Position numbers and translations under genes: made by a program. 64,000 nt of DNA from Ancylomarina salipaludis (GTDB lineage Bacteria; Bacteroidota; Bacteroidia; Bacteroidales; Marinifilaceae). How positions within the stretch are numbered: position 1 is the stretch's first letter; the number at the start of each line of letters is the position of its first letter. Shown here piece by piece: positions 25,015 to 43,420 of the stretch. The notes under the pieces were generated by a model, which was not told the DNA's origin, made no database searches, and saw only the letters and a program-made list of their open reading frames with translations. The stretch lies in the NCBI RefSeq assembly GCF_004122035.1, contig NZ_SAXA01000001.1:1-64000 (forward strand), given 5' to 3'.

Positions 25015-25028
25015 GCTGTCCCTGTATC

Positions 25029-26063: not shown

Positions 26064-26084
26064 ATCGATTTTCAACTCAATCTG

Positions 26085-26495
26085 ATGACAGAATCTCAAT
26101 CATCACATCCGATCGTTCTGTTCGATGGAGTTTGCAATTTGTGCAATACTTCAGTCAGATTTTTATTGGCTTATAACAAAAAAGCGAATCTTCTTTTTTG
26201 TCCATTGCAATCAGCTAAAGCCGATAAATTAATTCGTGACTTAAATTGGAAAGGAGAAAAACTGGATAGTCTCATTTTTATTGAAGAAAGGCAAGTCTAC
26301 ACCAAAAGCGAAGCCGTGTTCGAAATATCAAAACACTTGATCTATCCCTGGAAAGCAATCTACCATTTCAGGCATTTGCCCAAAAGATTTTGCAATTGGG
26401 TATACGATAAAATTGCTAAAAACCGATATGCCTGGTTTGGAAAAAAAACGTCCTGTATGATACCAAAATCAGATTGGAAAAATCGTTTCTTATAA
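26085..26495 (+). CDS. Thiol-disulfide oxidoreductase of the DCC family
   Basis: A 136-residue protein of the DUF393 family. It opens with VLFDGVCNLCN, where the Asp and the Cys-x-x-Cys give the family its name. It probably performs thiol exchange in the cytoplasm. It is the last gene of the arsenic-type operon, 21 bases after the permease, and ends at a shared terminator. Confidence 0.85.
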   Translation: MTESQSSHPIVLFDGVCNLCNTSVRFLLAYNKKANLLFCPLQSAKADKLIRDLNWKGEKLDSLIFIEERQVYTKSEAVFEISKHLIYPWKAIYHFRHLPKRFCNWVYDKIAKNRYAWFGKKTSCMIPKSDWKNRFL

Positions 26496-26499
26496 ATAC

Positions 26500-26531
26500 A
26501 AAACCCGAAAGCCTGCTGACTTTCGGGTTTT
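26500..26531. terminator. Bidirectional terminator
   Basis: AAAACCCGAAAG, loop CCTGCTGA, CTTTCGGGTTTT: a perfect 12-bp stem between the DCC gene (plus) and pfkA (minus). Confidence 0.9.
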
Positions 26532-26558
26532 ATGTATTTAGTTGTAAGTTTTTTCGGT

Positions 26559-27653
26559 TTAATCACCAAAACAAATACCAACTCCTTTGGCTGTTTTTAC
26601 CAAATTAGAGTTAGGATTTACTAAGTTTTGCTTACCAATTGCTTCTGGCAGTGGTACAGCAACAACTTCAGGATGATGATAAGCCACCATATGTCCAAAT
26701 TTCTTTTCAAGTACCATTTCGAAAGCTTTGACCCCAAACTGAGTGGCTAAAACTCTGTCATAGGCTGTAGGAATACCGCCACGTTGCAAGTGACCTAGAA
26801 CAGTTGTTCTGATATCAGCTTCAACACCAGCCTCCTTTAATTCATATAGCAAACGATCAGCAGCACCACTTAGTTTCAAGTTTGGATTTCCCACTTCAAC
26901 ACTTTGTTCAGCTAAAGCTTCTCCTCCAATAGGCATAGCACCCTCGGCAATTACAATAATTCCAAAACCTTTTCCTTTTAGGAAACGTGTATCCAGTTTT
27001 TCCTTCACTTTCTGAATGTCATAAGGAATTTCAGGAATCAAGCAAGCCTCTGCACCACCTGCAATAGCAGCAGATAAAGCAATCCATCCCGCATCACGTC
27101 CCATTGCTTCCAAAATGAAAATACGGTTGTGAGATGCTGCTGTGGTTTTCAACTTGTCAACAGCCTCAGTACAAACCTGAACAGCAGTTTGGTAACCAAA
27201 GGTGAAATCGGTTGCCATCAAGTCGTTATCAATTGTTTTTGGTACCCCAATAATGTTTAAACCTTTTTCATAAAGAGCCTGAGAGATCTTCTGCGAACCA
27301 TCTCCACCAATACTAATGACAGCGTCAACACCTAAATATTGCAATTTGCGAATCATCTCATCTGAACGATCAGCTGATCCCCATGTACCATCAGAATTTT
27401 TTACCGGCCAAGCAAAAGGCCCTCCTTTGGTTGTTGTACCAATGATCGTTCCTCCCTGATAATGTATCCCTTTTACAGCTGCATCATCTAATATTTTTAT
27501 TTCAGTAGGTTCTTTCAATATTCCATCAAAAGACTGAATACTACCAATTACTTCCCAATCTTTTTCTTGTGCTGCACGTTTAACTACTGCACGAATTACC
27601 GCATTCAATCCTGGGCAATCGCCACCCCCTGTTGCAACTAATACTCTTTTCAT
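26559..27653 (-). CDS. pfkA: 6-phosphofructokinase (mixed-type, group III-like)
   Basis: Phosphorylates fructose 6-phosphate in glycolysis. It has 364 residues from the ATG at 27653 (the open frame also includes a TTG two codons earlier). The phosphate loop is IGGDGS, with Gly where pyrophosphate enzymes have Asp, so ATP is the likely donor. The substrate motif is PKTIDND, with Lys where ATP enzymes of the E. coli type have Gly. This combination is known in the PFK_mixed group, so the donor should not be assumed. Catalytic Asp residues of TIDND are present. Confidence 0.9.
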   Translation of the reverse strand: MKRVLVATGGGDCPGLNAVIRAVVKRAAQEKDWEVIGSIQSFDGILKEPTEIKILDDAAVKGIHYQGGTIIGTTTKGGPFAWPVKNSDGTWGSADRSDEMIRKLQYLGVDAVISIGGDGSQKISQALYEKGLNIIGVPKTIDNDLMATDFTFGYQTAVQVCTEAVDKLKTTAASHNRIFILEAMGRDAGWIALSAAIAGGAEACLIPEIPYDIQKVKEKLDTRFLKGKGFGIIVIAEGAMPIGGEALAEQSVEVGNPNLKLSGAADRLLYELKEAGVEADIRTTVLGHLQRGGIPTAYDRVLATQFGVKAFEMVLEKKFGHMVAYHHPEVVAVPLPEAIGKQNLVNPNSNLVKTAKGVGICFGD

Positions 27654-27983
27654 ATTCAAAGTTTAAGTTTTGAATTGTCGAATTAAAAACCAATCATTCA
27701 TTCTTATTATCAAGAAATCGAATTGTTGATTATAAAATTCATCCAATTACTTTTAAATTATATGGCTTGGCTAGCTGATGCTAATTTAGAAATATTTTCT
27801 TAATACAAAAGAAACAATTTCACTATCAAGGCTTTGCAATCGTTTTCGTTTCTGATATTTTAATTAAATTTAAACTTTAAATTACATTAAATATAACTGA
27901 GTTTAAAAGTGTTATTTGTTTCATCTATCAATTTCATTATTTTTTTTTAATAATTTCTGATCAAAAATTATTTAGTCTATAAT
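27654..27983. other. AT-rich divergent spacer
   Basis: About 330 bases between pfkA and the macrodomain gene. It must hold both promoters, but I see no exact TAnnTTTG box. TAAACTTTG at 27669-27661 is near the pfkA start with one extra base in the box. No small gene or repeat is evident. Confidence 0.6.
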
Positions 27984-28493
27984 ATGATTATCAAACTGCA
28001 CAAAGGCGATATTACAAAAATGAGCGTTGATACCATTGTAAACGCTGCCAATTCAAGCTTATTGGGTGGTGGTGGTGTTGATGGAGCCATACATCGGGCT
28101 GCCGGCCCGGAACTTCTTGTGGAATGTCGAAAATTAAATGGTTGCCCAACCGGAAAGGCCAAAATTACCAATGCTTACAACTTAGCTTGCAAGCATGTGA
28201 TTCATACTGTAGGTCCAATTTGGAAAGGCGGAAACAGCAATGAAGCCAATCTATTGAAATCCTGTTATAAGAATTCGTTGAAACTAGCCGAAGCGTACAA
28301 ATTGGAAAGTATTGTCTTTCCGAACATTAGTACAGGAGTATACGGCTATCCGAAAGAAGAGGCTGCAAAAATTGCCATTGAGACTGTCATGACGAAAAGT
28401 TTAAAACTGAAACATCTGAAAGAAATTACCTTTTGTGTTTTCGACGACACAAACTACGAAATTTATCAGAAACTGCTTAAGGATATTATCTAA
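27984..28493 (+). CDS. Macrodomain protein (O-acetyl-ADP-ribose deacetylase type)
   Basis: A 169-residue single macrodomain. The ADP-ribose pocket is visible: [30 protein letters not shown] (given here in part as IVNAAN and [10 protein letters not shown]) and the later [10 protein letters not shown] phosphate loop. It resembles E. coli YmdB, which removes acetyl from O-acetyl-ADP-ribose and regulates RNase III. It is monocistronic. Confidence 0.9.
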
Positions 28494-28513
28494 TGGCTGT
28501 ATGCAAAAAATAA

Positions 28514-28549
28514 AAAAGGCTGTTGAAACTTAAATCTCAACAGCCTTTT
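28514..28549. terminator. Bidirectional terminator
   Basis: AAAAGGCTGTTGA, loop AACTTAAATC, TCAACAGCCTTTT between the macrodomain gene and the porin. Confidence 0.9.
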
Positions 28550-28570
28550 CTTAAAAAAATTTATTCTTTA

Positions 28571-29767
28571 TTAGAAAGCAAACTGCAAGCGTGTTTGAAT
28601 CATATTAAAGTTTTCCTCTCCATTCAATGCATAAGCATCCAAATCAACATTGGTAAAATTGAACCTCATCAGAATATTGTGATTTACATACCAAGTGCAT
28701 CCCAGAGTGATATCTTTTTGCTTTCCACCCAAAATACCCGCATCAGAATCATTCAAATCTGTTTCATTGTAACGGGTTAATAATTCGACAGAACCAGGTC
28801 CGGGTTTAGTCAAACGAGCTGATTTCATTGTGTACTTGTAATCGCCACCTTTGATCAACCATCCAAACTGAGCGTACCACCCCTTTGAATGATAATCCTC
28901 AAAGCCTTTATTGCGATTTACCTTAGCATCAACAAATTCGCCTTGTACTGAAATAGGCCCTGAAGCAGCAATCATTTCAAAATTCAATTTCACCTGATTT
29001 TCTGCACCAATCACATTAGCGTCTATAAACCGACGACGTTCGATATGTGTGGCTGCCCGAGATCGATAACGAATTGATTTCATGACACTTTCCCCATCGC
29101 TATTAAAAGCCGGATCAGCAGTTCTGTAAATACCTGAAACACCAAAATGCAGTAAATTTCCATTTGAATTGATTGGAGCATATGCCAAGCGTGAATTCAA
29201 ACTAAAGCCCTCGTCTCCCGCTGCTTTATTATTCGTATCACTACCAAATAAACCAATTGTGTAGAAATATTTCTGTCCCCAAAGCTCGTATGCAACACCC
29301 AGGTTACGTCCCGGACGGAATGCTTCTACTGTACTGGAAGCATGCATAAACCTGGTTGTTTTTGAACTCTCTGTCTGCTCAATTCCAAAAGGCTCTAAAA
29401 AATGTCCGGCACGAACCAAACTGTTCTTGTCAATATTATATTGAAGAAAAACATCCTTCAAAGCAACAGCGCCATCGGCAAATCCAACATTGATTTTTGC
29501 ATCCCATTTTTTCCATAGGGTCGCTTTCATCAAAAGGCGAACATCTCTAAATTCACTCCCGCTGCCAAGATCGGTTTTATCATCGAAGTAGGCTGCAGCA
29601 TCCATATATACACGTCCGCCAAAACCAAACTTAAAGTTACCATCTTCACTCGCGAAAGAAATGGAACCTTTATTGACTTTTGTAGCCAATTCTATTTTAT
29701 TCTGGCTCATTCCCCCCAAGGTGCTAAATATTAGAAACAGACCTAAAACTAATTTTGTTTTTTTCAT
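28571..29767 (-). CDS. OprP/OprO-type outer-membrane porin (A)
   Basis: A 398-residue beta-barrel protein. The signal peptide is KKTKLVLGLFLIFSTLGGMS, cut before QNK. FGGRVYMDAAAYFDD, the FLEPFGIEQ motif and a closing aromatic residue (QLQFAF) are typical of the phosphate-selective porin O/P family. It is a relative of the porin at 31611-32963. I chose the ATG at 29767; a GTG two codons earlier is possible. The substrate is unknown; anionic solutes are known for the family. Confidence 0.85.
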   Translation of the reverse strand: MKKTKLVLGLFLIFSTLGGMSQNKIELATKVNKGSISFASEDGNFKFGFGGRVYMDAAAYFDDKTDLGSGSEFRDVRLLMKATLWKKWDAKINVGFADGAVALKDVFLQYNIDKNSLVRAGHFLEPFGIEQTESSKTTRFMHASSTVEAFRPGRNLGVAYELWGQKYFYTIGLFGSDTNNKAAGDEGFSLNSRLAYAPINSNGNLLHFGVSGIYRTADPAFNSDGESVMKSIRYRSRAATHIERRRFIDANVIGAENQVKLNFEMIAASGPISVQGEFVDAKVNRNKGFEDYHSKGWYAQFGWLIKGGDYKYTMKSARLTKPGPGSVELLTRYNETDLNDSDAGILGGKQKDITLGCTWYVNHNILMRFNFTNVDLDAYALNGEENFNMIQTRLQFAF

Positions 29768-29840
29768 GAACACGAATTATTAAAAAAATGGTAATTACTC
29801 AATTCTGCAAAATTAGCAAGGCCTACACTCCTAAACAAAT

Positions 29841-29864
29841 AAAGCTGCCCAAATGAGCAGCTTT
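29841..29864 (-). terminator. Hairpin after the middle porin gene
   Basis: AAAGCTGC, loop CCAAATGA, GCAGCTTT: an 8-bp stem 23 bases after the stop, with a weak U-tract. Confidence 0.65.
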
Positions 29865-29886
29865 AAATCCTGAGTTATTTCGATAA

Positions 29887-30921
29887 TTAAAACTTGAATT
29901 CGAAGTTGACAAACAACAACGACTTGTCTTCGATACTTGTATCTTTATGCATAAACCCCTGATAATTCAATGCCATTTTTACACCTTTTGCAGGAGCATA
30001 CTGAACACCAGTAGTAATCGCACTTCCATTTTTAGAAAGGTTCCACTTTTCAGTCTCACCATCCAATTTATTTGAATTCAGATAGTCATAGCGTCCAAAA
30101 ACTTCCACTTTCTTATTCACAATATAAGTTGAATATACAGATAAACCATCTAAATCATGATTGTCAGCAGCTTTAGAATACTTACTTCCATTAATCAGTT
30201 TGTTGTATTCTGCACCCATTTTAAAATGATCACAGAATTTGTAACCAACAAATGCAGCTAAAGCTGAAACAGTAACATCCTTCTCATTGCCACCATTATC
30301 AACAACAGTTGTGGTATTGGCATCCGCATAAAATTTTGCAATCAAACCTTTGTTTTTGAATACAAGATCGGCTCCAATCTTTTGTTTTCCATCTTCGTCC
30401 TGGATTTTCTTATAGCCCTCACCATTAATCACAAATGCATTGGCATATAACTTATCAGTGATTTTAATGTTAGCCTTAATTCCCAAATCAGCACTGCTAC
30501 CAAATCCATATTGGTCGTTAAATGATTTCATGATATAACGGTATCCCCAAAAACTTTCCTGGTCGCTGAATTGTTCCAAACCAATCATACCTAAAGACAG
30601 TTTAACAACCGGAGACATTTTCCAGTCCAACTGAGCTTTTTTAAGATAAGCCGTATAATCGCTACCGCCTTCATTTTGTCCAACATCAAAAGTCACACTG
30701 GCTGTAAAATCTTTACTAATGTGATACTTATAGCCAAAATAAGCTCTTTGAATTTCAAAACTGCTTTCCTTTTTAGTCCCATTAGTCATATCGTAATGGT
30801 AATTGAAAAACACTTTTCCTGATGCTTTTCCTGATGGCTTAAATTCTGCTTTTTCTTGTGCAGTCGTACTTAGGGCTGCAGTCAATATCAGTAAACCTGA
30901 TAATAGATTCTTTAATTTCAT
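29887..30921 (-). CDS. Outer-membrane porin (B)
   Basis: A 344-residue beta-barrel. The signal peptide ends LSTTAQ near residue 22. Alternating polar and hydrophobic strands continue to a C-terminal LLFVNFEFKF with the terminal Phe needed for outer-membrane insertion. FEIQRAYFGYKYHISKDF near residue 58 is typical of OprO/P-like or DUF3078-like porins. It differs from porins A and C in sequence. Its promoter lies in the 306-base gap before it, which also holds the terminator of a small gene. Confidence 0.8.
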   Translation of the reverse strand: MKLKNLLSGLLILTAALSTTAQEKAEFKPSGKASGKVFFNYHYDMTNGTKKESSFEIQRAYFGYKYHISKDFTASVTFDVGQNEGGSDYTAYLKKAQLDWKMSPVVKLSLGMIGLEQFSDQESFWGYRYIMKSFNDQYGFGSSADLGIKANIKITDKLYANAFVINGEGYKKIQDEDGKQKIGADLVFKNKGLIAKFYADANTTTVVDNGGNEKDVTVSALAAFVGYKFCDHFKMGAEYNKLINGSKYSKAADNHDLDGLSVYSTYIVNKKVEVFGRYDYLNSNKLDGETEKWNLSKNGSAITTGVQYAPAKGVKMALNYQGFMHKDTSIEDKSLLFVNFEFKF

Positions 30922-31227
30922 TGTGGTTGTTTTAATTTAGTAGTACTCGAAATCAAATTAAAAAACATTGTTTTGATTTCAGAAGCAAAAATAATATCTC
31001 AACATATACCTAATGCACCCATAAGGTTAACTTTAGGTTAAAAGAATGTTTCTTTAAAAAATAAAATATCTTTCTTAAGCTACTACTCCCTATAAAAAAA
31101 GAGCGTATCAATCATTGTTGACACACCCTTTCATCACAAGTCTTTTAAAAGGATTTTCTCTATTCAGATAAAAAATCACCTCTACATTATGCCACAATTT
31201 TTTAAACTCCTATTCCAATAGGGGCCC
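30922..31227. other. Spacer before porin B
   Basis: About 306 bases. It holds the terminator of the 48-residue gene and presumably the porin B promoter. GGTTAAC-like words occur at 31025 and again at 31524, with no clear meaning. Confidence 0.55.
31094..31129 (-). terminator. Terminator of the 48-residue protein gene
   Basis: Minus strand GGGTGTGTCAA pairs with TTGATACGCTC (11 pairs, three of them G-U), loop CAATGA, then seven Ts. It lies 100 bases after the small gene and closes its transcript. Confidence 0.75.
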
Positions 31228-31232
31228 CTATT
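31217..31232. repeat. 16-base perfect palindrome
   Basis: AATAGGGGCCCCTATT, unusually GC-rich for this spacer. It overlaps the stop codon of the 48-residue gene. It could be a protein-binding site. Confidence 0.6.
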
Positions 31233-31374
31233 TCCTGCAAGCTATGTTATTTAGATCTGAAGGTTCAGTGTCGTTGTTCTCATTCAATTCTTTATCAATT
31301 AATTCGGAAAATAATTTATAAAAACGATCCATCGTAGTATTAAATTCAAATGTAAAATCTTTTGATTGCTCCAT
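31228..31374 (-). CDS. 48-residue mini-protein, paralogue of the one at 37331
   Basis: The product begins MEQSKDFTFEFNTTMDRFYK and continues LFSELIDKEL, then a polar tail. It shares DFTFEFN-TMDRFYK-FS with the 49-residue protein encoded before glpD1: 22 of the first 30 positions agree, and the DNA differs mostly at synonymous sites, which supports real coding. It has no signal or membrane segment. It has its own terminator, and the terminator of the glpD1 operon lies upstream, so it is a separate unit. I do not know the family. Confidence 0.75.
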   Translation of the reverse strand: MEQSKDFTFEFNTTMDRFYKLFSELIDKELNENNDTEPSDLNNIACRK

Positions 31375-31533
31375 GATTGATACTTTTAAAATAGTTCACA
31401 CTCAGTTAGAAAAAACAATTTATTAGTCAAATCTGCATCTTAATTTTCTACAAGTAAACTTAATAGAGACACTTGTCCCAATCGTTTCTATTGAGTTAAC
31501 TTTTTCTTAAAAAAGTATTAAACGGTTAACTAC

Positions 31534-31570
31534 AAAAAAAGAGCGAGTCAAAATGAATTGACCCACTCTT
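31534..31570 (-). terminator. Terminator of the glpD1-glpT-glpQ-porin operon
   Basis: Minus strand AGAGTGGGTCAA / TTGACTCGCTCT (12 pairs with two G-U), followed by seven Ts, 41 bases after the porin stop. Confidence 0.85.
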
Positions 31571-31610
31571 AAAAAATTACATGTCGAAGTGTAATAATTT
31601 ATGATTCAGA

Positions 31611-32963
31611 TTAGAAATTAACCTGTACTCTGGCTTTAATCATACCAACTTTCTCATCCAATGGATAAACTTGGTTCTGAACATCCATGTAGCTGTAGTT
31701 TAAACGAAACATCACATTATCGTTTAGATAGTAGTTAACAGCAGCACTAATCGTCTCTGCCTTACCACCTTGGATACTCATATTTCCAGCTCCACCTAAA
31801 GCTGCTCCTAAATCAGCAGGACCGTAAGCTCCGTTGAAATAAGTTCCATCAATATCATTCAAATCTGTGTTATCGTAACGTAAAAGGAATTCATAAGAAC
31901 CAGCCTTTGGACGATTGATATAAGCAGTTGAAGAGTTATATGAATAGTTGTCACCCAAAAGGAACCCAGCTGTAACATAGAAAGCTTCTGTTTCAATATC
32001 ACGCATCTCACCATACCATCCTGGATAATCACCTGGAGCAACTGGCCATGCATATCCTCCACCTGCAGTATGAGTCCAATAAGGGTTATCTTTCATCAAT
32101 CTTGAAACGTAGTCATCGTCACGAGTCACTTTCGTTTTAGTATACTCTGCTTGCAACATAACAGGACCGCTAAGAACCATAGATTGGAAGTTATAACGCA
32201 TATCTGTTCTTGCTCCTTTAATATCAGCATTTAAAAATTTATGCTCTGGACCAGCTGCTAATGAAACTTCACGATTATAATCGTCATCATTTAATGACTC
32301 GTTAAAACCATTCGCTTCCGGAATACGATAGGTAAATGAACCTCCTAATTGGAAAAGCACATTGTCGTTTACGATTGGAGTATAAACCAATTTTGTAGTC
32401 GTAGAGAAACCCTGATCACCCTTATTGTGATTATCTACAGAACCTGCAAAAAGACCTGTTGATCCGTAGAACTTATCGGTATAATAAGTGTATCCCAAAC
32501 CGATGCTACGACCAATTCCCATAGCTTGTGTGGTATTGGAAGCACCAATAAAACGAAGGTTTTTGCTTGAAGCTGATGCCTCGATACCAAATGGTTCGAA
32601 GAAGTTACCAACAGTGAAAATACTGTTTTTGGCTTGATTGTATCTTAAGAATGCATCCTTAATTTTCACTTCATTATTACCAAAGCTCACATTCACTTTA
32701 GCACTCCATTGGCCCCACTTTACTGTAGTTCCCAAGCGAATATCCTTTATGGAAGCATCTGAACTTAAATCAGTCGCATCATCGAAATAATGAACACCAT
32801 CCATATAAATTCTACCATTAAGGCTTACCTGATAATCCTTATCAGCAGAGGTTAATACGATACCTCCTTTTTTTGACTCAGCAGTCAATTGTTTTTCCTG
32901 AGCTACTGCACTTGCCGCTACCATTCCTAAAGCTAGTGTAGCGATATATATTTTTCTTAACAT
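31611..32963 (-). CDS. OprP/OprO-type outer-membrane porin (C), glycerophosphate operon
   Basis: A 450-residue beta-barrel with a signal peptide ending AVAQ near residue 21. LNGRIYMDGVHYFDD, FFEPFGIEAS and the ending MIKARVQVNF match porin A and the phosphate-selective porin O/P family. It is last in the operon after glpQ (26-base gap). In this setting it probably admits glycerophosphodiesters or glycerol-3-phosphate through the outer membrane (inference). Confidence 0.87.
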   Translation of the reverse strand: MLRKIYIATLALGMVAASAVAQEKQLTAESKKGGIVLTSADKDYQVSLNGRIYMDGVHYFDDATDLSSDASIKDIRLGTTVKWGQWSAKVNVSFGNNEVKIKDAFLRYNQAKNSIFTVGNFFEPFGIEASASSKNLRFIGASNTTQAMGIGRSIGLGYTYYTDKFYGSTGLFAGSVDNHNKGDQGFSTTTKLVYTPIVNDNVLFQLGGSFTYRIPEANGFNESLNDDDYNREVSLAAGPEHKFLNADIKGARTDMRYNFQSMVLSGPVMLQAEYTKTKVTRDDDYVSRLMKDNPYWTHTAGGGYAWPVAPGDYPGWYGEMRDIETEAFYVTAGFLLGDNYSYNSSTAYINRPKAGSYEFLLRYDNTDLNDIDGTYFNGAYGPADLGAALGGAGNMSIQGGKAETISAAVNYYLNDNVMFRLNYSYMDVQNQVYPLDEKVGMIKARVQVNF

Positions 32964-32989
32964 ATCTTTATCGTTTATAGATTTAACAA

Positions 32990-34312
32990 TTAGTAACCTA
33001 AGTCATTCATCACTTCCTGAGCAGTACCCACAACTTCACGGTTCTGATACTTCATTGACAAATCTGTCAAATTAGTAAAACCACCATCGATAAACATATT
33101 AGGGTTTACATCATATCCAAAATCTCCACTAATTACACGAGCAGGATTGTCAAAACGAGAGACTCCAGCATAAAAATAATCTCCATTGTATTTTCTCAAC
33201 TGATCTTCAGTATCAAAAGAATAAGCATGAACAAGCATACCAGCACGGTGATACATTTCACACATCCAAGGTTCAGTTAATTCAGGATACCCATTAGGTT
33301 TTCCGGCAATAGAAGGGCCTGCAATATGACAATTATATTCTACTGAGAAATTAATGAATTCAGCCAATGATTCAATTGAATTGGATGGGCGAACGTAAGC
33401 AGCACTCTCATCTTCCCAAAGCAACATACACTTAGGTACTCCAGGTAATTCTTTCTCCAATTTCACAACAGACTCACGAGAGAAAGTTTGTAAAATAAAA
33501 CGACCATTGGTATTGCCAACAGCAACTTTACCCGGAGTCGTTGCAATTGTTTTAGGAGAATCTGTAATATTCCAACCCGCATCAGTTAAAAAGGCTGCTA
33601 AGTCAGCTTCCATTCCACTAAATAAATAAGGCTCTTTAGTTTCAGCATAAACACCTGGACGGTTACCATTATCGTCATTATCAACAACAAAAACAAACTC
33701 TCCCGTTGAAGAATCTTCTAAAACCAGAGTTTCAGTTCCATCAGCTTTTTTGTAGTAAGGCTTGCCTTCCGAATTTCTCTTCACTTTCATACCTTCGGCA
33801 ATCAACAACACATCTTTTAGTGTACAGATCTGTAAGCCAACGAATGAGGCACGAGCATTTTCAGGTTTATCAATATTAAACCATGAACCTGCATCTAACT
33901 GACGTAATTGTTTCAATGTAAAAACACTTACAGGATAATCTTCTTTTCCTGGGAAAATACTTTCGATATTAGATGTACGACGAAGATTTCCATCATGTAA
34001 AGCTAGTAATACACCATCTTTTGTTCTCTGAAGATCGATCTCCAAATAGTCAGCACCCATATTACGAGCCCAACGGAAAGCTGCTTCTGTTTCCTCAGGG
34101 GCCCAGAATGTTGAACCACGGTGAGCAATCACAGCGTCAGGTTTCACATAGTCGCGAACAATTTTAGCCTCTGCACTAAGTTCGTTTAAAGGATAAGTTT
34201 TGTATAAGTTGTAAGGATTATAATCAGGGGTGTCATCTTCACATCCTGCAAATCCAATGCTAGTCAGGATTAGAGCACCTGCTAACAAATTTCTCACATT
34301 TAGACTTTTCAT
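32990..34312 (-). CDS. glpQ: Glycerophosphodiester phosphodiesterase, lipoprotein
   Basis: Hydrolyses glycerophosphodiesters to glycerol-3-phosphate and an alcohol. It has 440 residues. The lipobox IGFAGC puts Cys24 as the lipid anchor, so it acts outside the cytoplasm. Catalytic features: AHRGSTFWAPEET near residue 63, EIDLQRTKDG near 95 (metal-binding Glu and Asp) and LLALHDGNLRRT with the second catalytic His. About 60 residues around 175-240 (including VFVVDNDDNGN) look like an insertion compared with short GDPDs. It lies between glpT and porin C in one operon. Confidence 0.93.
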   Translation of the reverse strand: MKSLNVRNLLAGALILTSIGFAGCEDDTPDYNPYNLYKTYPLNELSAEAKIVRDYVKPDAVIAHRGSTFWAPEETEAAFRWARNMGADYLEIDLQRTKDGVLLALHDGNLRRTSNIESIFPGKEDYPVSVFTLKQLRQLDAGSWFNIDKPENARASFVGLQICTLKDVLLIAEGMKVKRNSEGKPYYKKADGTETLVLEDSSTGEFVFVVDNDDNGNRPGVYAETKEPYLFSGMEADLAAFLTDAGWNITDSPKTIATTPGKVAVGNTNGRFILQTFSRESVVKLEKELPGVPKCMLLWEDESAAYVRPSNSIESLAEFINFSVEYNCHIAGPSIAGKPNGYPELTEPWMCEMYHRAGMLVHAYSFDTEDQLRKYNGDYFYAGVSRFDNPARVISGDFGYDVNPNMFIDGGFTNLTDLSMKYQNREVVGTAQEVMNDLGY

Positions 34313-34388
34313 GTGTTTTAAAATTTATGGTTAGTAATTATTAATTTTTATTATTTGTTTTTTAATTAAGATTGAATCTCTCAATAAA

Positions 34389-35726
34389 TTAATGATGAAG
34401 ACCATTATGACCATTTTTCTCCTGAATCCAGGAAATACCAATCAGGATAATGGACGCAATACAGGCACCCAAAAGAACAATAAATCCACCGTTCCAACCC
34501 CAGGTATCAACAACAGCTCCCATAGCAATATTGGCAAACAAGGCACCTCCCAAGTATCCAAACAGACCTGTTAATCCGGCAGCTGTACCTGCTGCCTTTT
34601 TAGGAACCAAATCCAAAGCATGTACACCAATCAACATCACAGGACCGTAGATTAGGAATCCAATACAAATTAGAGCTATCGAATTCATTACTATCGACTG
34701 ACTGAACCAATACATGATAACAGAAACAAAAACCAATATCATATAAATGATACTCACAGGAGCTCGTTTCCCTTTAAACACTTTATCACTTAGGTATCCA
34801 CATAATATGGTTCCGGGTATACCCGCCCACTCGTATGCAAAATAGGCCCAACCTGTTTCTTTAATCGAAAAGCCTTTGGCTTCTTCAAGATATAAAGGAG
34901 CCCAGTCGAGTACACCATATCGCACCAAGTAAACAAATGCATTTGCAAAGGCTATCGACCATAGCAATCTATTCTTAAGAATATATTTCATGAAGATTTC
35001 TTTAGCAGTCATCTCCTCTTCATATTTTTCAGAATAATTATCAGGATAGTCGTTTTTAAACTTCTCAATATTTGGTAATCCACAAGATTGTGGTGTATCA
35101 CGAATTAATAACCAGGCTATAAATGCAACACCAAGCGCAACAAAACCCGGGAAATATAATTTCGATTGCCAGTCAGCAAAAATAGCAACACCTAAAATAG
35201 CCAGAGGACCTATAATACCCCCACCAACATTGTGAGCCACATTCCAAATCGACATCTTCGTTCCACGCTCGCGAATAGAAAACCAATGGACCATTACACG
35301 ACCACAAGGAGGCCATCCCATTCCCTGAAACCATCCATTAAGTAAAAGCAATACAAACATGATTGCAATCGATGACGTAGCAACCGGAAGTAAACCCATT
35401 GCAATCATAGTGATTGCCGAAAGAACCAAACCAAAAGTCAGAAATCGTCTCGCATTACTACGGTCAGACACATTGCCCATGATAAACTTACTTAAACCAT
35501 AAGCTACCGAAACACCTGATAATGCAAATCCCAACTCAGTTTTGGTATAGCCTAATTCAACTAAATCCGGCATTGCCAGTGAAAACACCTTTCTGACAAG
35601 ATAATAACCTGCGTATCCCAAAAAGATACCTAGGAAAACCTGTAAACGCAATCGTTTGTACGTCGGGTCAATTTTATTTTCCGGCAGTAATTCTTTATGT
35701 GCCGCCGGTTTTAGAAAACCAATCAT
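34389..35726 (-). CDS. glpT: Glycerol-3-phosphate transporter
   Basis: A 445-residue MFS antiporter of the organophosphate:phosphate family in the inner membrane; it exchanges glycerol-3-phosphate for phosphate. Twelve membrane segments are visible. [20 protein letters not shown] with the YLVRK arginine near residue 45 and the [13 protein letters not shown] loop near 90 are typical of GlpT/UhpT. It follows glpD1 by 24 bases, and glpQ follows after 76 bases. The glycerol-3-phosphate route fits its neighbours better than hexose phosphate. Confidence 0.92.
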
Positions 35727-35750
35727 ATTATAAGATTTTGGGTGAGTATT

Positions 35751-37319
35751 TTAGTTTAAAACGTAGTTCGCTGCCAAACTTGTATATTTGTTAATTTGTT
35801 TTTCAATCCAATCTTCATCCTTCCCAAGTTCAATAGCCATTATTGTAGCCACCTCAGGTGCGATTCTGACACTCTCTCGGGCATCAAGTAAAAGTGCACG
35901 GGTTCTTCGTGATAAAACGTCCTCCAGTGAACGTGCCATTTCATTTCGGACAGCCCAAACCACTTGCGCTTTTATAATTCCAAGTTCCTGGCTTAGACAA
36001 AGTCCCATATCTTTATTTGATTTAGCTAAAGAAAGTATTTTCTCAGCATCTGAACCATAGAAATAAAGAGGATCCTTTAAATCGACATTTTGTTTCCAAC
36101 CATGAAGTGGCAATTTACGAGTAATTGATTTCTTTAAGACAAAACCTGCTACTTTTGAAGCTGTATCAACAGTTTCCTCAGCCATCTGTCTGTATGTTGT
36201 CCATTTTCCACCCGTTATAGTAACAAGTCCGGAATCAGATATGTAAATTTTATGCCCTCGGGAAATTTCTTTTGTTTTCTTCCCTTCTCCGGTTGGAGCT
36301 GCCAAAGGTCTTAATCCTGCAAATACTGATTTTACATCTGAACGCTTAGGCATTTTAGTTAAAAAACGGCCTGCTGTTTCAAGAATAAAGTCAATCTCTT
36401 CATCAAGGGCTTTGGGTTCCAACTCTGCCTTTTCTTTCTGAATATCGGTTGTTCCCACAACCACTTTATTGTGCCAAGGTACTGCAAATAAAACACGACC
36501 ATCATCCGTTTTAGGAATCATTATCGCGTAATCATTTGGAACAAATTCTTTATCTAAAACAAGATGTACCCCCTGACTAACACAAACAATATCTCTGGAT
36601 TTTGGTGCATCCATCTTGATGATATCATCAACAAATACACCTGTTGCATTTACGACAACCTTTGCATTAATTTCAAATTTTTCTTCAGTTTCCTGATCAA
36701 TAACTGTAACTCCCGAAATATTACCATTGGTCTTGTTTAACCCAACAACTTTCATATAGTTGATAGCTGTGCCACCATTTTCAACAAAAGTCTGACATAA
36801 GTTAATCCCATAACGTGCATCATCGAATTGTCCATCATGATATACAACGCCGCCTCTTAACTTTTCTTTAATCAGAGTTGGGATATGTTTTAAGGTCTTT
36901 TTTCTGGAATAAGGTAAAGAACGTCCCAAACCTAATCTTCCGGCCATCAGATCATAAACCGTTAATCCTATAGTATAATATGGCTTCACCCACCATTTGT
37001 AACTGGGAATGATGAACGATTGATCTTTAACCAGGTGAGGCGCATTCTGTTTCATCAACCCTCTTTCTCTAAGTGCTTCAAGTACAAGAGAAATATTACC
37101 CTGTGCTAAATATCGAACCCCTCCATGAACCAACTTTGTACTTCTACTGGAAGTTCCCTTCGTAAAATCATCTTGCTCCAGCAACAAGGTTTTCAGTCCT
37201 CTGGTAGCTGCCTCAACAGCTGCACCTAAACCAGAAGCTCCACCTCCAACTATCACAACATCCCATTTTTCAGACATGTTTTTCAAGTTCAAGATCATCT
37301 TTTCACGTACCATTACCAT
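35751..37319 (-). CDS. glpD: FAD-dependent glycerol-3-phosphate dehydrogenase (copy 1)
   Basis: Oxidises glycerol-3-phosphate to DHAP and passes electrons to quinone at the membrane. It has 522 residues. The FAD-binding loop VVIVGGGASGLGAAVEA starts near residue 20, TSSRSTKLVHGGVRYL near 58 holds the substrate-site His and Arg region, and GGKWTTYRQMAEE near 370 is the second FAD motif; a C-terminal helical domain follows. About 80% of residues agree with the second copy at 39570-41138. Both begin MVMVREKMI, which supports this start. A 49-residue gene ends 11 bases upstream. Confidence 0.95.
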   Translation of the reverse strand: MVMVREKMILNLKNMSEKWDVVIVGGGASGLGAAVEAATRGLKTLLLEQDDFTKGTSSRSTKLVHGGVRYLAQGNISLVLEALRERGLMKQNAPHLVKDQSFIIPSYKWWVKPYYTIGLTVYDLMAGRLGLGRSLPYSRKKTLKHIPTLIKEKLRGGVVYHDGQFDDARYGINLCQTFVENGGTAINYMKVVGLNKTNGNISGVTVIDQETEEKFEINAKVVVNATGVFVDDIIKMDAPKSRDIVCVSQGVHLVLDKEFVPNDYAIMIPKTDDGRVLFAVPWHNKVVVGTTDIQKEKAELEPKALDEEIDFILETAGRFLTKMPKRSDVKSVFAGLRPLAAPTGEGKKTKEISRGHKIYISDSGLVTITGGKWTTYRQMAEETVDTASKVAGFVLKKSITRKLPLHGWKQNVDLKDPLYFYGSDAEKILSLAKSNKDMGLCLSQELGIIKAQVVWAVRNEMARSLEDVLSRRTRALLLDARESVRIAPEVATIMAIELGKDEDWIEKQINKYTSLAANYVLN

Positions 37320-37330
37320 TTTATTCTTCT

Positions 37331-37480
37331 TTATTGCTTATTACTTACTTGCTTGTTCGAATTTTTAAACGTTGCACCATCTTTTCCGTTTAGTTCCCGT
37401 TCTAATAAATCCGAGAAGTACTTATAAAAACGATCCATGGTAGCATTAAATTCAAATGTAAAATCATTTTGCTGTTCCAT
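37331..37480 (-). CDS. 49-residue mini-protein leading the glpD1 operon
   Basis: The product begins MEQQNDFTFEFNATMDRFYK, then YFSDLLEREL and a polar, lysine- and asparagine-rich tail. It is the paralogue of the protein at 31228-31374. Its stop lies 11 bases before glpD1, and it is inserted between the duplicated glpD promoter region and glpD1; glpD2 has the same promoter region but no such gene. The core is probably one amphipathic helix. A regulatory or adaptor role in glycerol-3-phosphate use is inference. I do not know the family. Confidence 0.75.
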   Translation of the reverse strand: MEQQNDFTFEFNATMDRFYKYFSDLLERELNGKDGATFKNSNKQVSNKQ

Positions 37481-37514
37481 GTTTAAAATATTTTAAGAAT
37501 ACATTTTATAATCA

Positions 37515-37640
37515 GATACATTGTTATGCTATGCATGAAGAGAAAAAATAAATAAGCCAGGCTTATTTAATGTCTTATTACTCTCGTGGTGACAAACTTA
37601 AAAAAAATACATAGCTATGCAAAGTATATTTTAATTTTAA
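37515..37640 (-). promoter_or_regulatory. Promoter region of the glpD1 operon, duplicated at glpD2
   Basis: Two blocks are shared with 41241-41355: one around 37515-37568 (ATACATTGT..GCTATG) and one around 37594-37631 (ACATAGcTATgCAAaGTAT). The second contains the palindrome CATAGCTATG at 37610-37619, directly beside a -7-like TATACTTTG on the minus strand. Spacing between blocks is nearly equal in both copies (about 85 and 83 bases). Confidence 0.6.
37549..37569. repeat. Palindrome with 10-base arms in the glpD1 promoter
   Basis: TAAATAAGCC, one central A, GGCTTATTTA: a perfect inverted repeat. The aligned region before glpD2 has lost it, so if it is an operator it is specific to this copy. 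Confidence 0.65.
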
Positions 37641-37766
37641 ATATTATTTAGATACAATCTCAATAATAAAACAAAAATCATTAATAATCAATTACATTTT
37701 CAAGACACAAACTCAATACTTAGTCCAATAAAAAGAACTGTTATCAGCTTCCAGATCTAAAAAAGA

Positions 37767-39266
37767 TTAATTTTTCTTCTCCCAATTCTTTGAACGATCC
37801 AAAGCTTTATCCCATCCTTCGATTAATAGCTGAGTTTCATCTTTGGACATTTGGGACTCAAACTTTCTGTCCATTCCCCACTGATGTTGAATATCTCCAA
37901 CTCCATTCCAAAATCCAACAGCCAAACCTGCCAGATAAGCTGCACCCAAAGCGGTTGTTTCTGATATTTTAGGTCGAGATACAGGAACGTTAAGGATATC
38001 AGCCTGAAACTGCATCAATAAATTATTAGTCGCAGCACCTCCGTCTACACGGAGTTCATTTATTTTAATATCTGCATCAGCCTCCATCGCTTTTAAAACA
38101 TCTCTAACTTGAAACGCAATACCTTCGAGAGCTGCTCTGGCAATATGTGCCGCCGTAGATCCTCTTGTCAAACCAACAATTGTTCCTCGTGCATACTGAT
38201 CCCAATGTGGTGCTCCCAATCCTGTTAATGCCGGCACCATAAATACACCACCATTATCATCTACCGTTTTTGCCAGCACTTCAACCTCGGAGGATGTTTT
38301 GATAATACCTAAACCATCACGTAACCATTGAACAATGGCACCTCCCATAAAAATACTACCCTCCAATGCATAAGTCGTTTCGCCATTAATTTGCCAGGCA
38401 ATAGTTGTCAGCAAATTGTTCTTCGATTTTACTGGTCGGTTACCCGTATTGCATAACATGAAACATCCTGTGCCGTAAGTATTCTTAACCAAACCAGGCT
38501 TTAAACACATTTGGCCAAAGCTTGCCGCTTGTTGATCTCCTGCTAAACCCGAAATAGGCACTGCATGCGCAAAAAGCGTACTAACTGTGTGCCCATATAC
38601 TTCAGAAGATGATTTAACCTCAGGCAGCATATTCACAGGGATATTCAAAAGTTCCAACATCTCAGTATCCCATTCCAATGTTTTGATATTATATAAGAGA
38701 GTTCTACTCGCATTCGTTACATCCGTCACATGAACCTTCCCCTGCGTTAAGTTCCAAATGAGCCAGGAATCAATCGTTCCAAAGGCCAATTTTCCCGCGT
38801 CTGCTTTTTCACGTGCACCTTCAACATTGTCTAAAATCCACTTTACTTTCGTTCCGGAAAAATAAGAATCGATTATTAAACCTGTCTTATCCTGAATCAT
38901 ATCAGCATAACCATCCTTTTTTAGTTGATCGCAATATTTAGCAGTACGTCTGTCTTGCCAAACAATCGCATTATAAATGGGCTGACTTGTTTCCCGATCC
39001 CAAACGACTGTCGTCTCTCTTTGATTCGTAATCCCAATTCCGGCTAAACTCAAGCCGTTGACTCCAGCACGAACGATTGCTTCGGCAGCCACACCTGCCT
39101 GAGTTGACCAAATCTCTATAGCGTCATGTTCGACCCAACCCGGCTGAGGAAAAATCTGAGTCAATTCCTTTTGTGCAGAACTTACAATTTCTCCTTTCTT
39201 ATTAAAAACAATTGCTCTTGAACTGGTTGTTCCCTGATCCAGAGATAAAATAAACTTCTCGTTCAT
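37767..39266 (-). CDS. glpK: Glycerol kinase (copy 1)
   Basis: Converts glycerol and ATP to glycerol-3-phosphate; FGGY-family kinase of 499 residues. All key motifs are intact: DQGTTSSR (residues 10-17, phosphate binding), NQRETT with the substrate Arg-Glu near 82, the Asp of GDQQAA near 243, NTYGTGCF near 263, and VDGGAATNN near 410 for the adenosine site. It lies between the two glpD copies. I see no clear terminator after it. Confidence 0.95.
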
Positions 39267-39569
39267 ATTCGTTTGGTATTTAAGAGATGCCTTTGTAAAC
39301 AGTAATGAATTAAGGTATATTTATCCGTCTAAAATAAAAACCCTAATGATGAAAACGTTTGCGAACAAATCAAAAAAAAACTGCCTGTTATTTGACAACG
39401 CAGCTCTAAGATAATAAACAAAAGTATATCTTCTCTGAATGTTTAAGATGAGTACATGTTACCAGGCACTCATCTTAAGAAATCAATCATATCAGCTTTA
39501 TATTTGTGAATACAAAACAAATGACTTCGTTTAACACCTTGTATTCACAAATCAAAAAGCTTTTTCATT
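39267..39569. other. Spacer between glpK1 and glpD2, with two inverted repeats
   Basis: Holds TTAAGATGAGT / ACTCATCTTAA (39443-39453 and 39468-39478) and TTTGTGAATACAA / TTGTATTCACAAA (39503-39515 and 39539-39551). Neither is followed by a U-tract. They may be weak terminators for glpD2 or binding sites for glpK1. No small gene is seen. Confidence 0.65.
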
Positions 39570-41138
39570 TTAGTTTAAAATGTATCTTAAAGCCAGGCTT
39601 CTATATTTCTCAACTTGATCAGCTTCCCATTTAGAATCAAATCCTAATTCCTTAGCTAAAAGTTGGGCAACATCCGGTGCAATTCGAGCACTCTCTCTGG
39701 CATCCAATAATAAGGCTCGGGTTCTTCGTGATAAAACATCTTCAACTGAACGTGCCATTTCATGACGAGCAGCCCAAACAACCTGTGCTTTTATTATCCC
39801 CAAGTCCTTACTCAAAAACTTACCTAAATCCTTATCTTCCTTCGATAACGCAAGTATCTTATCAGAATCAGATCCATAAAAATACAAAGGATCAGACAGG
39901 TCAACATTCTTTTTCCAGCCATGAATTGGCATATTACGGGTAACAGACTTTTTAATTGGATAAGAAGACACTTTTGATGCAGCATCAACAACTTCTTCAG
40001 CCATCTGACGATAAGTTGTCCATTTACCTCCGGTAATGGTTATCAAACCAGCATCCGAGGTATAAATTTTATGTCCTCGGGAAATCTCTTTGGTCTTTTT
40101 TCCCTCACCCGTTGGCGCTGCCAAAGGACGTAATCCGGCAAATACCGATTTTACATCAGAACGTTTAGGCTCTTTTGCTAAGAATCGTCCAGCTGTTTCT
40201 AAAATAAAATCGATCTCTTCTTCCAATGCTCTGGGTTCTAATTCTGCTCCTTCTTTTTGAACATCAGTAGTCCCCACCACCACCTTATTGTGCCAAGGCA
40301 CAGCAAATAAGACACGTCCATCATCCGTTTTAGGAATCATGATGGCATAATCATTGGGAACAAATTCTTTATCCAAAACAAGGTGAACGCCCTGACTCAC
40401 ACAAACAATATCTCTTGACTTAGGCGCATCCATTTTAATAATATCATCAACAAAAACTCCTGTAGCATTAATAACCACTTTCGCTTTAATATCGATACGA
40501 TTTCCAGTTTCACCATCAATGGCAGCAACACCAGAAATTTTTCCATTCGCCTTATTCAAACCAACCACTTTCATATAGTTGATTGCAGTTCCTCCATTCT
40601 CGACAAAAGTTTGGCAAAGGTTAATTCCATAACGTGAATCATCGAACTGTCCATCGTGATACACAACGCCACCTCTTAAATTCTTTTGCTTTAATGTTGG
40701 TATATATTTGAGTGTTCTTTTTCTTGAGTATGGCAACGAACGACCTAAGCCTAAACGGCCTGCCATAAAATCATAAACAGTTAAACCTAAAGTATAATAA
40801 GGTTTGACCCACCATTTATAACTAGGAATTATAAAAGACTGATCTTTAACCAGGTGAGGTGCATTTTGTTTCATTAAGCCTCTTTCACGCAATGCTTCGA
40901 GAACCAAGGAAATATTTCCCTGTGCTAAATACCTAACACCACCATGAACCAGCTTTGTGCTTCTGCTTGATGTACCTTTGGTAAAATCGTCTTGTTCAAG
41001 CAATAAAGTTTTCATTCCACGTGTTACAGCCTCAAGTGCAGCTCCCAGCCCCGACGCTCCTCCTCCAACAATAACAACATCCCATTCCTGGTTTGTCTTT
41101 TGTATTTCAGAAATCATTTTTTCACGTACCATTACCAT
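39570..41138 (-). CDS. glpD: FAD-dependent glycerol-3-phosphate dehydrogenase (copy 2)
   Basis: A 522-residue paralogue of the enzyme at 35751-37319, same length and motifs (VVIVGGGASGLGAALEA, TSSRSTKLVHGGVRYL, GGKWTTYRQMAEE), so it should have the same reaction. Differences gather near the N-terminus, around residue 215 and in the last 120 residues. An unusually strong ribosome binding site (AGGGAGG, 9 bases before the ATG) fixes the start and is rare in this phylum. It shares its promoter region with glpD1 but lacks the mini-protein gene. Confidence 0.94.
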   Translation of the reverse strand: MVMVREKMISEIQKTNQEWDVVIVGGGASGLGAALEAVTRGMKTLLLEQDDFTKGTSSRSTKLVHGGVRYLAQGNISLVLEALRERGLMKQNAPHLVKDQSFIIPSYKWWVKPYYTLGLTVYDFMAGRLGLGRSLPYSRKRTLKYIPTLKQKNLRGGVVYHDGQFDDSRYGINLCQTFVENGGTAINYMKVVGLNKANGKISGVAAIDGETGNRIDIKAKVVINATGVFVDDIIKMDAPKSRDIVCVSQGVHLVLDKEFVPNDYAIMIPKTDDGRVLFAVPWHNKVVVGTTDVQKEGAELEPRALEEEIDFILETAGRFLAKEPKRSDVKSVFAGLRPLAAPTGEGKKTKEISRGHKIYTSDAGLITITGGKWTTYRQMAEEVVDAASKVSSYPIKKSVTRNMPIHGWKKNVDLSDPLYFYGSDSDKILALSKEDKDLGKFLSKDLGIIKAQVVWAARHEMARSVEDVLSRRTRALLLDARESARIAPDVAQLLAKELGFDSKWEADQVEKYRSLALRYILN

Positions 41139-41147
41139 TCTTTTGTT

Positions 41148-41154
41148 CCTCCCT
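41148..41154 (-). promoter_or_regulatory. Strong ribosome binding site of glpD2
   Basis: AGGGAGG on the minus strand, 9 bases before the ATG at 41138. Most genes here lack such a site, including glpD1. Confidence 0.7.
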
Positions 41155-41240
41155 AGTTATTGAGTTAGTATCAAATATCTTTTAATCCTGATTAGATCAT
41201 TTTTCAAATCTTCAATCACCATCTCATGATTATCACATTA

Positions 41241-41355
41241 CCACATACATTGTATTGCTATGTATAAACACAAAATATATAAGCATATTTAAACGCTCTT
41301 TTTAAAATTGCTTTCAATACAAACCTAAAAATAAATACATAGTTATACAAGGTAT
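41241..41355 (-). promoter_or_regulatory. Promoter region of glpD2, duplicate of the glpD1 one
   Basis: ATACATTGTATTGCTATG (41246-41263) and ATACATAGTTATACAAGGT (41335-41353) align with two blocks before glpD1. The shared words CATAGC/CTATG occur in each block and look like operator half-sites. Confidence 0.55.
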
Positions 41356-41436
41356 GTTGTCATATCAGAGTAATTTAGAATTAATCTACGTAATGAGCCC
41401 ACATTTATTAAATCTTAAATCCAATTTCATTTAACT

Positions 41437-41473
41437 AAAAAAGGGGTGATAATTTATAAATTATCACCCCTTT
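41437..41473 (-). terminator. Terminator of padR-glpK2
   Basis: AAAGGGGTGATAATTT and its exact complement almost without a gap (arms 16 bases), then T-rich sequence on the minus strand. Strong hairpin 20 bases after the stop. Confidence 0.9.
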
Positions 41474-41492
41474 CCAATATCAATAATTGTAT

Positions 41493-42989
41493 TTAATCGT
41501 CTGAATCTAACCATTGTCCGGTTCTACCAATAGCTCTTTTCCAATATTTTAAAGTTTTGTCAACTTTATCATTTTCCATTTTTGCGTCATACACTTCTGT
41601 AATTTCCCAATGCGCCTTAATCTCCTCGATATCTTGCCAAAAACCAACGGCTAAACCTGCTAAATAGGCAGAACCAAGAGCGGTAATTTCTTTCACATTA
41701 GGACGAACAACCGGGATACCAAGAATATCAGATTGGAATTGCATAATGGTTTTATTCAGAACCGTACCCCCTGCCCGAAGCTGAGTCAATGCATTTCCGG
41801 AATCACGTTCCATCGCTTTTAAAACATCACGAGAGCGGAAAGCAATCGATTCAAGTGCTGCACGAGCAATATGTCCGGGAGTGGTTCCCATATTGAGTCC
41901 CCAAAATGTTCCTCTGGCGTATTGATCCCAATAAGGAGCACCTAAACCCGTAAAAGCAGGCACGATATAAACACCCCCATTATCCTTCTCCGAAAGAGCT
42001 AATTCTTCTATTTCCTCAATAGAATGAATCAGGTTCATCTGATCGCGTAACCACTGTATTACGGCTCCACCAATAAAAACACTTCCCTCTAGCGCATAAG
42101 TAACTTTATCACCTATTTGCCAGGCAATTGTCGTGATTAAATTATTATTCGAAGTTACAATTTGGTCACCCGTATTCATCAATATAAAACAACCCGTATT
42201 GTATGTGTTTTTCACCATGCCCTTCTCAAAGCACATCTGGGCAAACAAAGCCGCTTGTTGATCACCACAAATACCTGCAATAGGAATCTCTACTCCAAAT
42301 AATGACTTTGAAGTCATGCCATACACTTCACTCGAAGTACGTACCTCAGGTAAAATATTTTCGGGTATATCTAAAAGTTCTAATAATTCCTTATCCCATT
42401 CCAATGATTTGATATTATAAATCATTGTACGACTGGCATTCGAAACATCAGTTACATGACAAGCCCCTTTAGTCAATTTCCAAATTAGCCAGGAATCTAC
42501 AGTTCCAAATGCTAAGTTTCCCTCTTCAGCTTTTTGTCTTGCCCCTGGAATATTATCCAATAACCACTTAATTTTAGTACCCGAAAAATAAGCATCTAAA
42601 ATCAGACCTGTTTTATCTTTGATAGTTTGTGCGTAGCCTTTCTCTTTCAACTCATCGCAATACTGCGAAGTTCTTCTATCCTGCCAAACAATAGCATTAC
42701 CAATCGGCTTCCCCGTTTCCTTGTCCCAAAGTATAGTTGTCTCGCGCTGATTTGTGATACCGATTGCTTTGATATCTTCAGCCTTAAGGCCTGCTTTTTG
42801 GATTGCCTCTTCGGCAACCGAAGCCTGAGAGTACCATATTTCATTGGCATCCTGTTCAATCCAACTTAAACGCGGAGAAAACTGTTCAAATTCCTTTTGT
42901 GCAATTGAGATAATTTTGCCTGAATTATCAAAAATAATGGCTCTGGATATAGATGTTCCCTGATCTAAGGATAAGATATATTTTTGCAT
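41493..42989 (-). CDS. Glycerol kinase-like protein (diverged copy 2)
   Basis: A 498-residue FGGY kinase, clearly a paralogue of GlpK at 37767-39266. Glycerol-site residues remain (NQRETT, Tyr of DAYFSGTK, Asp of GDQQAA). The nucleotide site has changed at four places: DQGTTSS became DQGTSIS, NTYGTG became NTYNTG, DGGA became AGGT (LRAGGTV), and the NN after it became NK. It may be a weaker kinase, use another nucleotide, or act as a glycerol sensor. It is cotranscribed with a PadR regulator 26 bases upstream. Confidence 0.85.
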
Positions 42990-43015
42990 AGCTGTCGATA
43001 TATTAAATGTTTATT

Positions 43016-43375: not shown

Positions 43376-43393
43376 AGTACCAAAAGATTGTTC

Positions 43394-43419
43394 ATCTCGA
43401 TATTGAGATATCTATAGAT
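43394..43419. promoter_or_regulatory. Probable PadR operator
   Basis: Two adjoining palindromes: ATCTC-GATATT-GAGAT (43394-43409) and ATCTATAGAT (43410-43419). They lie right where transcription of padR should begin, as expected for autorepression. Confidence 0.55.
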
Positions 43420-43420
43420 G

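Follow-up and report, generated by a model that had tools for sequence, protein, structure and literature searches.

Introduction

SgrT of enterobacteria is a small protein that is co-expressed with a metabolic response and modulates its transporter or enzyme. Here, we describe two short paralogous open reading frames (ORFs), miniA and miniB, in the glycerol-3-phosphate (glp) region of Ancylomarina salipaludis (Bacteroidota, Marinifilaceae); the stretch analysed, hereafter the window, comprises 64,000 nucleotides (nt) of contig NZ_SAXA01000001.1 (positions 1 to 64,000; assembly GCF_004122035.1). Like SgrT, the minis are about 40-50 residues long, have no membrane-spanning helix and are predicted to be co-expressed with the response that they would serve. 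Unlike SgrT, the mini ORF heads an operon mRNA and not a regulatory RNA, and the likeness is one of description, with no sequence relation claimed.

Short ORFs in Bacteroides leaders are discussed in a passage of PMC7366714. As with leader peptides and upstream ORFs in general, the mini is the first short ORF after the promoter and lies near the next start codon; it differs from leader peptides in its length of 48 codons, in protein ends that are conserved in other genera, in that no terminator is listed before glpD, and in the possession of a stand-alone paralogue (miniB) with a synonymous bias. The locus also resembles PadR-regulated units in having a small regulator gene linked to it and palindromic operator-like sites where the promoter lies; here, we infer that the operator is bound by the linked PadR.

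We class the minis as a new family within a type of small protein that is already known. As read from sequence, the basis of this family is an ORF of about 48 codons that appears to be under purifying selection and stands first in glp units, downstream of a conserved promoter that carries two operator-like copies. Proteins of fewer than 50 residues are easily overlooked in genome annotation, and the family offers a handle on them, with defined glp units, a promoter carrying two operator-like copies and a candidate regulator nearby. It lends itself well to testing whether short ORFs that lie in leaders of Bacteroidota give rise to functional proteins.

A paralogous pair of short ORFs in the window

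miniA (37331..37480, minus strand) encodes a small protein of 49 residues and opens the glpD1-glpT-glpQ-porin unit as its first ORF; its stop ends at 37331 and the glpD1 ATG lies at 37319, which leaves a gap of 11 nt. miniB (31228..31374, minus strand) encodes a paralogue of 48 residues that stands alone between two terminators and two porin genes. The original prediction, made from the window alone, had named both ORFs, had placed miniA at the head of the glpD1 unit, 11 nt before glpD1, and had described miniB as a separate unit between two terminators beside a porin gene; all of this held, and the minus strand, absent from that prediction, and the second porin gene are added here. Frame 1 of the plus strand contains stops in both stretches.

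The two proteins are 52% identical overall and have MEQ..DFTFEFN.TMDRFYK.FS in common, in agreement with the N-terminal part and differing tails that had been predicted: the first 31 codons are conserved and the remainder is divergent. A third-position bias of the DNA differences had been predicted as well. It is present in the first 31 codons, where the 22 differences fall 5/3/14 on codon positions 1/2/3, and absent from the tails, where over 54 nt the counts are 10/9/14. Short ORFs as such are common, with 83 ORFs of at least 40 residues overlapping 25000-45000; what goes beyond chance for the minis is their paralogy, the conservation of their frame in relatives and their position.

Conservation and selection within the genus

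Among five genomes of the genus, the window's own included, miniA is present in four and miniB in three. G003 lacks both minis, and searches of it for glpD (at 1e-60) and for PadR (at 1e-20) likewise gave no match. In G001, miniA has a GTG start and miniB is only 40 residues long.

Selection at the protein level, as originally proposed, is borne out between G000 and G002, the two closest species. For miniA, all seven changes are synonymous and none is non-synonymous (dN 0, hence a ratio of non-synonymous to synonymous rates, dN/dS, of 0; binomial P 4.7e-06), and for miniB eight are synonymous and two non-synonymous (dN/dS 0.04; P 2.7e-05); if 30% of changes are assumed to be synonymous, P becomes 2.2e-04 and 1.6e-03, respectively. 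In the comparison with G002, neither mini ORF contains a gap column, while non-coding DNA has up to 35 (upstream of miniA) and up to 56 (downstream of miniB). For the Labilibaculum-type set g13, which was compared in 21 pairs among seven genomes with G068 left out, dN/dS was 0-0.23 in the 20 pairs with changes. That g13 is Labilibaculum, and genus g5 Marinifilum, is suggested by mini sequences that match those of named records. Conservation of the frame with a synonymous bias is clear for G000/G002 and for the g13 pairs, and less clear in wider genus pairs.

A wider family in Marinifilum, Labilibaculum and relatives

When the DNA upstream of glpD was read in relatives, an ORF of 47-48 residues was found at the same place in nine further genomes. 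Its sequence type (MED.RFD....NRLY.FFLDIL...GSIWE.WEKEL) has a conserved C-terminus of its own, SIW..WE.EL, unlike the window type, and in this Marinifilum/Labilibaculum type F17, F18 and SIW..WE.EL are invariant in 10/10 rows. A scan of named genomes with this type yielded 15 loci in Marinifilum, Labilibaculum and a Marinifilaceae metagenome-assembled genome; with the window pair as query, a scan of named genome contigs recovered no relative. The similarity of the two sequence types is weak and lies in the N-terminal helix; compared by hhalign, they match with an expect value (E) of 1.1e-4 and a probability of 55.8%, over 13 columns only, and none of 2000 column permutations reached the observed mean score.

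Across the bacterial family, 20 of 56 genomes carry a mini (E at most 1e-14); three more matches, at E 0.02-0.1, were taken as chance after one of the three had been opened. The copies ahead of glpD (A copies) number 20 in all, and 19 of the 19 that could be checked end 7-33 nt before the glpD start, as placed by alignment, G068 being left out of the position check at a contig end. The original prediction had proposed to look for homologues with a conserved frame, for the same position before glpD and for a dN/dS away from 1; such homologues exist and share that position, and in G000 versus G002 dN/dS is 0 for miniA and 0.04 for miniB. A second copy is present in five genomes beyond the window's genus; the four that were opened (intact in G022, G032 and G012, broken in G008) all lie 61-62 nt before glpT.

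A glpD match at 1e-60 was found in 29 of 58 relatives, and the 13 with an identity of at least 71% all have a mini upstream. For the other 16 (best identity at most 62%), a short-ORF scan upstream of glpD in 13 of them found no mini, and profile and protein searches of the 16 gave weak mini matches or none. In G013 and G024, these upstream readings cover only one of the two glpD genes.

Searches beyond the family used profiles A4 (Marinifilum/Labilibaculum type) and A5; profiles A3 and A5 include the window's own sequences, and their E-values for those are not independent. In 393 genomes of the order, A4 matched three, the window's own not among them, and A5 matched six (its own and five others); in 395 genomes of the phylum, A5 matched three (its own and two others). 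The matches outside the family have E 0.0026-0.0089. Five loci from these searches that were opened (L113, L118, L119, L116 and L117), together with two from other searches (L103 and L006), are treated as chance: none of the seven has a glp gene nearby, six are overlapped on the other strand by a longer ORF, and a frame of only 27 residues between genes makes up L117. L114, L120, L122 and the weak matches L104 and L105 (in G003 and G079) stand outside this reading. In the genomes searched, to which metagenome and viral collections did not belong, the mini family was found only in part of one bacterial family, namely Marinifilum, Labilibaculum and relatives. The two sequence types are best seen as one family across genera, given their similarity beyond chance and, for the A copies, the same position, promoter and operators; miniB lacks these position and operator traits.

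Promoter, operator-like copies and a linked PadR gene

Upstream of miniA lies a Bacteroidota-type promoter-like site, TTG...TAAGTTTG (37593..37622, minus strand), comparable to the consensus TTTG / TAnnTTTG given in PMC6847099 and PMC7366714. It overlaps the operator-like copy O1, ACTTTGCATAGCTATGT (37609..37625, minus strand), which lies inside the promoter, and a further operator-like copy, O2, GCATAGCATAACAATGT (37518..37534, minus strand), lies in the leader and begins 54 nt before miniA. The same promoter type stands upstream of glpD2 (41320..41350), with its own O1 (41337..41353) and O2 (41247..41263), all on the minus strand.

A promoter-like site TTG...TAnnTTTG was present in all 18 leaders read (15 of A copies and three labelled C). 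In 17 of the 18, the exception being G016, an operator-like copy with at most three mismatches overlaps the promoter, and in all 18 a second copy near ACATAG-N5-CTATGT starts 47-61 nt before the mini start. Twelve genomes were searched genome-wide for exact matches to the operator pattern: the ten that bear a mini hold 11, each at these glp leaders, with none exact in G012, and the two without a mini hold none; the pattern was derived from these very sites, and what carries information is therefore just that no exact match occurs anywhere else. Loose operator matches in the window are equalled in number by 12 of 100 shuffles.

A PadR-family gene (PF03551; 43016..43375, minus strand) is the candidate glp regulator and the putative reader of this operator. 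It is 97-99% identical in the three other genomes of the genus that have it, and in other genera it is linked to the glp cluster. Among the 56 genomes, those with a close PadR homologue (E at most 2e-55) are the very 20 that carry the mini; in seven others, PadR gave weaker matches (E 8e-33 to 5e-21). Such co-occurrence is also expected from linkage in one gene cluster, and the pattern alone is no evidence of interaction. A sigma-70 scan was set aside, with 39 sites, fewer than the shuffle mean of 50.

Origin and context of miniB

On its upstream side, miniB is bounded by the terminator after the porin gene of the glpD1 unit (31539..31570, minus strand; listed by the terminator scan, -18.4 kcal/mol), and downstream by a hairpin followed by a T run (about 31097..31132, minus strand), which the scan missed and whose folding energy is -17.4 kcal/mol. 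These terminators are 73% similar to each other, and miniB lies between two similar terminators in both G000 and G002; in G001 a second terminator near miniB was not seen by eye. None of the three miniB leaders has the promoter motif or the operator within 230 nt, and the next gene after miniB is a porin some 250-320 nt on, with no glp gene. In G001, degenerate pieces of glpD, glpT, glpQ and porin lie after the intact unit and before miniB (L035 14782-17069), and Marinifilum sp. D737 shows mini-glpT-glpQ-porin and then mini-glpD-glpK. Because miniB follows a porin and sits between similar terminators, and in view of the G001 remnants and the D737 order, it is probably the survivor of a collapsed tandem duplication that has lost operator and operon.

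Predicted structure and searches of known families

The AlphaFold model of the window type, built from alignment A6, which is gapped in its N-terminal part, is a single helix of residues 2-32 with a low-confidence tail (block scores of the predicted local distance difference test, pLDDT, 94 and 89 for residues 11-30; mean 73.2). For the Labilibaculum type, a helix of residues 8-29 and a short C-terminal helix of residues 40-47 were predicted (mean pLDDT 72.4). Both models are of middling confidence. The hydrophobic moment of miniA and miniB was reached in only 4 and 3 of 2000 shuffles, which points to a strongly amphipathic helix. A small hydrophobic type I toxin or membrane protein was considered and rejected, the most amphipathic 18-residue stretch having a mean hydrophobicity of -0.23 (miniA) and -0.06 (miniB).

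Searches of Pfam, NCBIfam and PHROG with the minis gave nothing beyond weak matches, the best with E 0.023 and all of them far from any curated cut-off, and a sequence search of the PDB gave no mini match better than E 0.8. Rfam had no match in 30900-41500. Among the titles and abstract openings listed by the literature searches made here, none describes such a glp-linked small protein, and narrow keyword searches that paired PadR with either glycerol kinase or small proteins found no paper.

Weighing the explanations

We favour, with slightly better than even confidence, the reading that the minis are small trans-acting helical proteins made with the glp genes and binding a partner common to the glp units, miniB having been kept as a protein after the loss of operator and operon. 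Once the regulon is induced, presumably when the linked PadR-type regulator lets go of the DNA, the mini would be made together with GlpD or GlpT and act in trans, as a helical protein, on a partner common to glp units. As a feedback element or adaptor, it would serve either the regulator or the membrane-associated GlpD/GlpT machinery; miniB would be a copy without operator and operon that is still kept as a protein. Translation, operator function, partner and effect are the steps that we infer in this scheme. The original prediction had suggested small regulators or adaptors of glycerophosphate use: the tie to the glp regulatory region is supported by the promoter, the double operator and the linked PadR gene, and also because some Marinifilum carry a copy heading glpT-glpQ-porin, whereas the regulator or adaptor role itself did not gain such support.

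Several observations weigh against the favoured reading. The strongest evidence of this kind consists of broken copies. In G008 (L098) and in Marinifilum sp. D714 (L072), the mini before glpD has a stop, TAA, at codon 2, which leaves only internal starts; in G008 the rest of the ORF is intact, and an internal ATG could give 41 residues. The second copies of G008 (L112, before glpT) and G073 (C5:129506-129640) also carry stops. Within the genus, miniB differs from that of G002 at 10/147 sites, no fewer than the 9/129 of a far upstream stretch, a control that includes the porin terminator. dN/dS is 0.34 and 0.36 for miniA of G000 against those of G004 and G001 (rising to 0.53 and 0.70 if only the first 30 codons are counted), and 0.39 for miniB of G000 against that of G001 (0.20 over the first 30 codons, with dN above dS in the tail); miniA of G004 and G001 differ by two synonymous and three non-synonymous changes (P 0.17). 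Profile A4 on its own missed the minis of the window at E 0.01, so that the sequences give weak evidence of homology across genera and the case depends on position. The helices of the Marinifilum and Labilibaculum proteins, with 194 and 110 of 2000 shuffles reaching their moment, are not clearly amphipathic. As to the regulatory tie, glpD2, in the window as in G002, is preceded by the promoter and both operator-like copies and by no recognisable mini, and with one mismatch allowed the operator-pattern totals fall below those of the reversed-pattern control in 12/12 genomes, without genome-wide enrichment.

As a rival explanation, the mini could be a leader ORF acting in cis, whose translation opens or feeds the glpD or glpT start by translational coupling while the peptide does little or nothing. 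Consistent with this, no ORF precedes the mini after the promoter in the leaders that were read, and the mini lies only 7-33 nt from glpD, the codon-2 stop of G008 and the stops in two of the five second copies show that the peptide can be lost, and the C-terminal tails diverge within the window's genus. However, the Marinifilum/Labilibaculum type is conserved in its amino acids at both ends in 10/10 rows, and the 61-62 nt to glpT are long for coupling. A function as protein in trans is preferred over such a leader function because miniB, with its dN/dS of 0.04 (G000/G002), has neither a glp gene behind it nor an operator, and is followed by a terminator; this orphan with its synonymous bias separates the two kinds of function. 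We consider the leader function possible but doubtful. An attenuation-type leader peptide, with ribosomes stalling on the mini ORF to control a terminator before glpD, would fit a short ORF in an mRNA leader, of the kind discussed for long 5' untranslated regions of Bacteroides in PMC7366714, but miniA and glpD1 are only 11 nt apart with no terminator-like site listed between them, Rfam found nothing in this region and no run of regulatory codons is visible, so that attenuation seems highly improbable.

The minis might also be functionless relics, carried along in a duplicated glp promoter-leader segment and now decaying. The stop-bearing copies of G008 and G073, the place of miniB between two similar terminators with degenerate glpD/glpT/glpQ/porin pieces before it in G001, the shortened miniB of 40 residues in that genome and the dN/dS of 0.34-0.39 in wider genus pairs are all in line with such a history. 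It agrees poorly with the synonymous bias of miniA and miniB against G002, with the low dN/dS across the g13 copies and with placement before glpD in 19/19 checkable genomes, and we hold it to be quite unlikely.

A more specific version of the favoured trans-acting reading takes the minis as feedback partners of the linked PadR-type regulator, either anti-repressor or co-repressor, the first product of the unit thus setting its switch, with miniB as an operator-free and separately expressed version. It is proposed because the mini follows the operator and not one enzyme, standing before glpD or glpT, and shares its 20 of 56 genomes with that PadR. Both supports are also expected from simple linkage, and we rate this version as unlikely; if true, it would mean that glycerol-3-phosphate use in Bacteroidota is under feedback by a small protein.

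Gene neighbourhood in the window

The glp-region genes described here all lie on the minus strand. In the unit headed by miniA, a putative glpD1 (35751..37319; PF01266, PF16901), encoding a glycerol-3-phosphate dehydrogenase dependent on flavin adenine dinucleotide, is followed by a transporter of the major facilitator superfamily, putatively glpT (34389..35726; PF07690), a glpQ-like glycerophosphodiester phosphodiesterase gene (32990..34312; PF03009) and, as last gene, a Porin_O_P porin gene (31611..32963; PF07396). Upstream of this unit, family profile matches identify glpK1, a glycerol kinase type (FGGY) gene (37767..39266), the glpD paralogue glpD2 (39570..41138) and the glpK paralogue glpK2 (41493..42989; FGGY). 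The stretch 35751-42989 contains two glpK and two glpD genes, in the transcription order glpK2, glpD2, glpK1, glpD1. An ORF of 21 residues before glpD2 (41157..41222, minus strand) was considered as a possible mini relic and rejected for want of sequence support, 333 of 1000 shuffles scoring equally well. Elsewhere in the window, two adjoining transporter-like genes at 779-3759 are apparently related, and a short transposase-like ORF, named by eye, lies beside them at 411-707.

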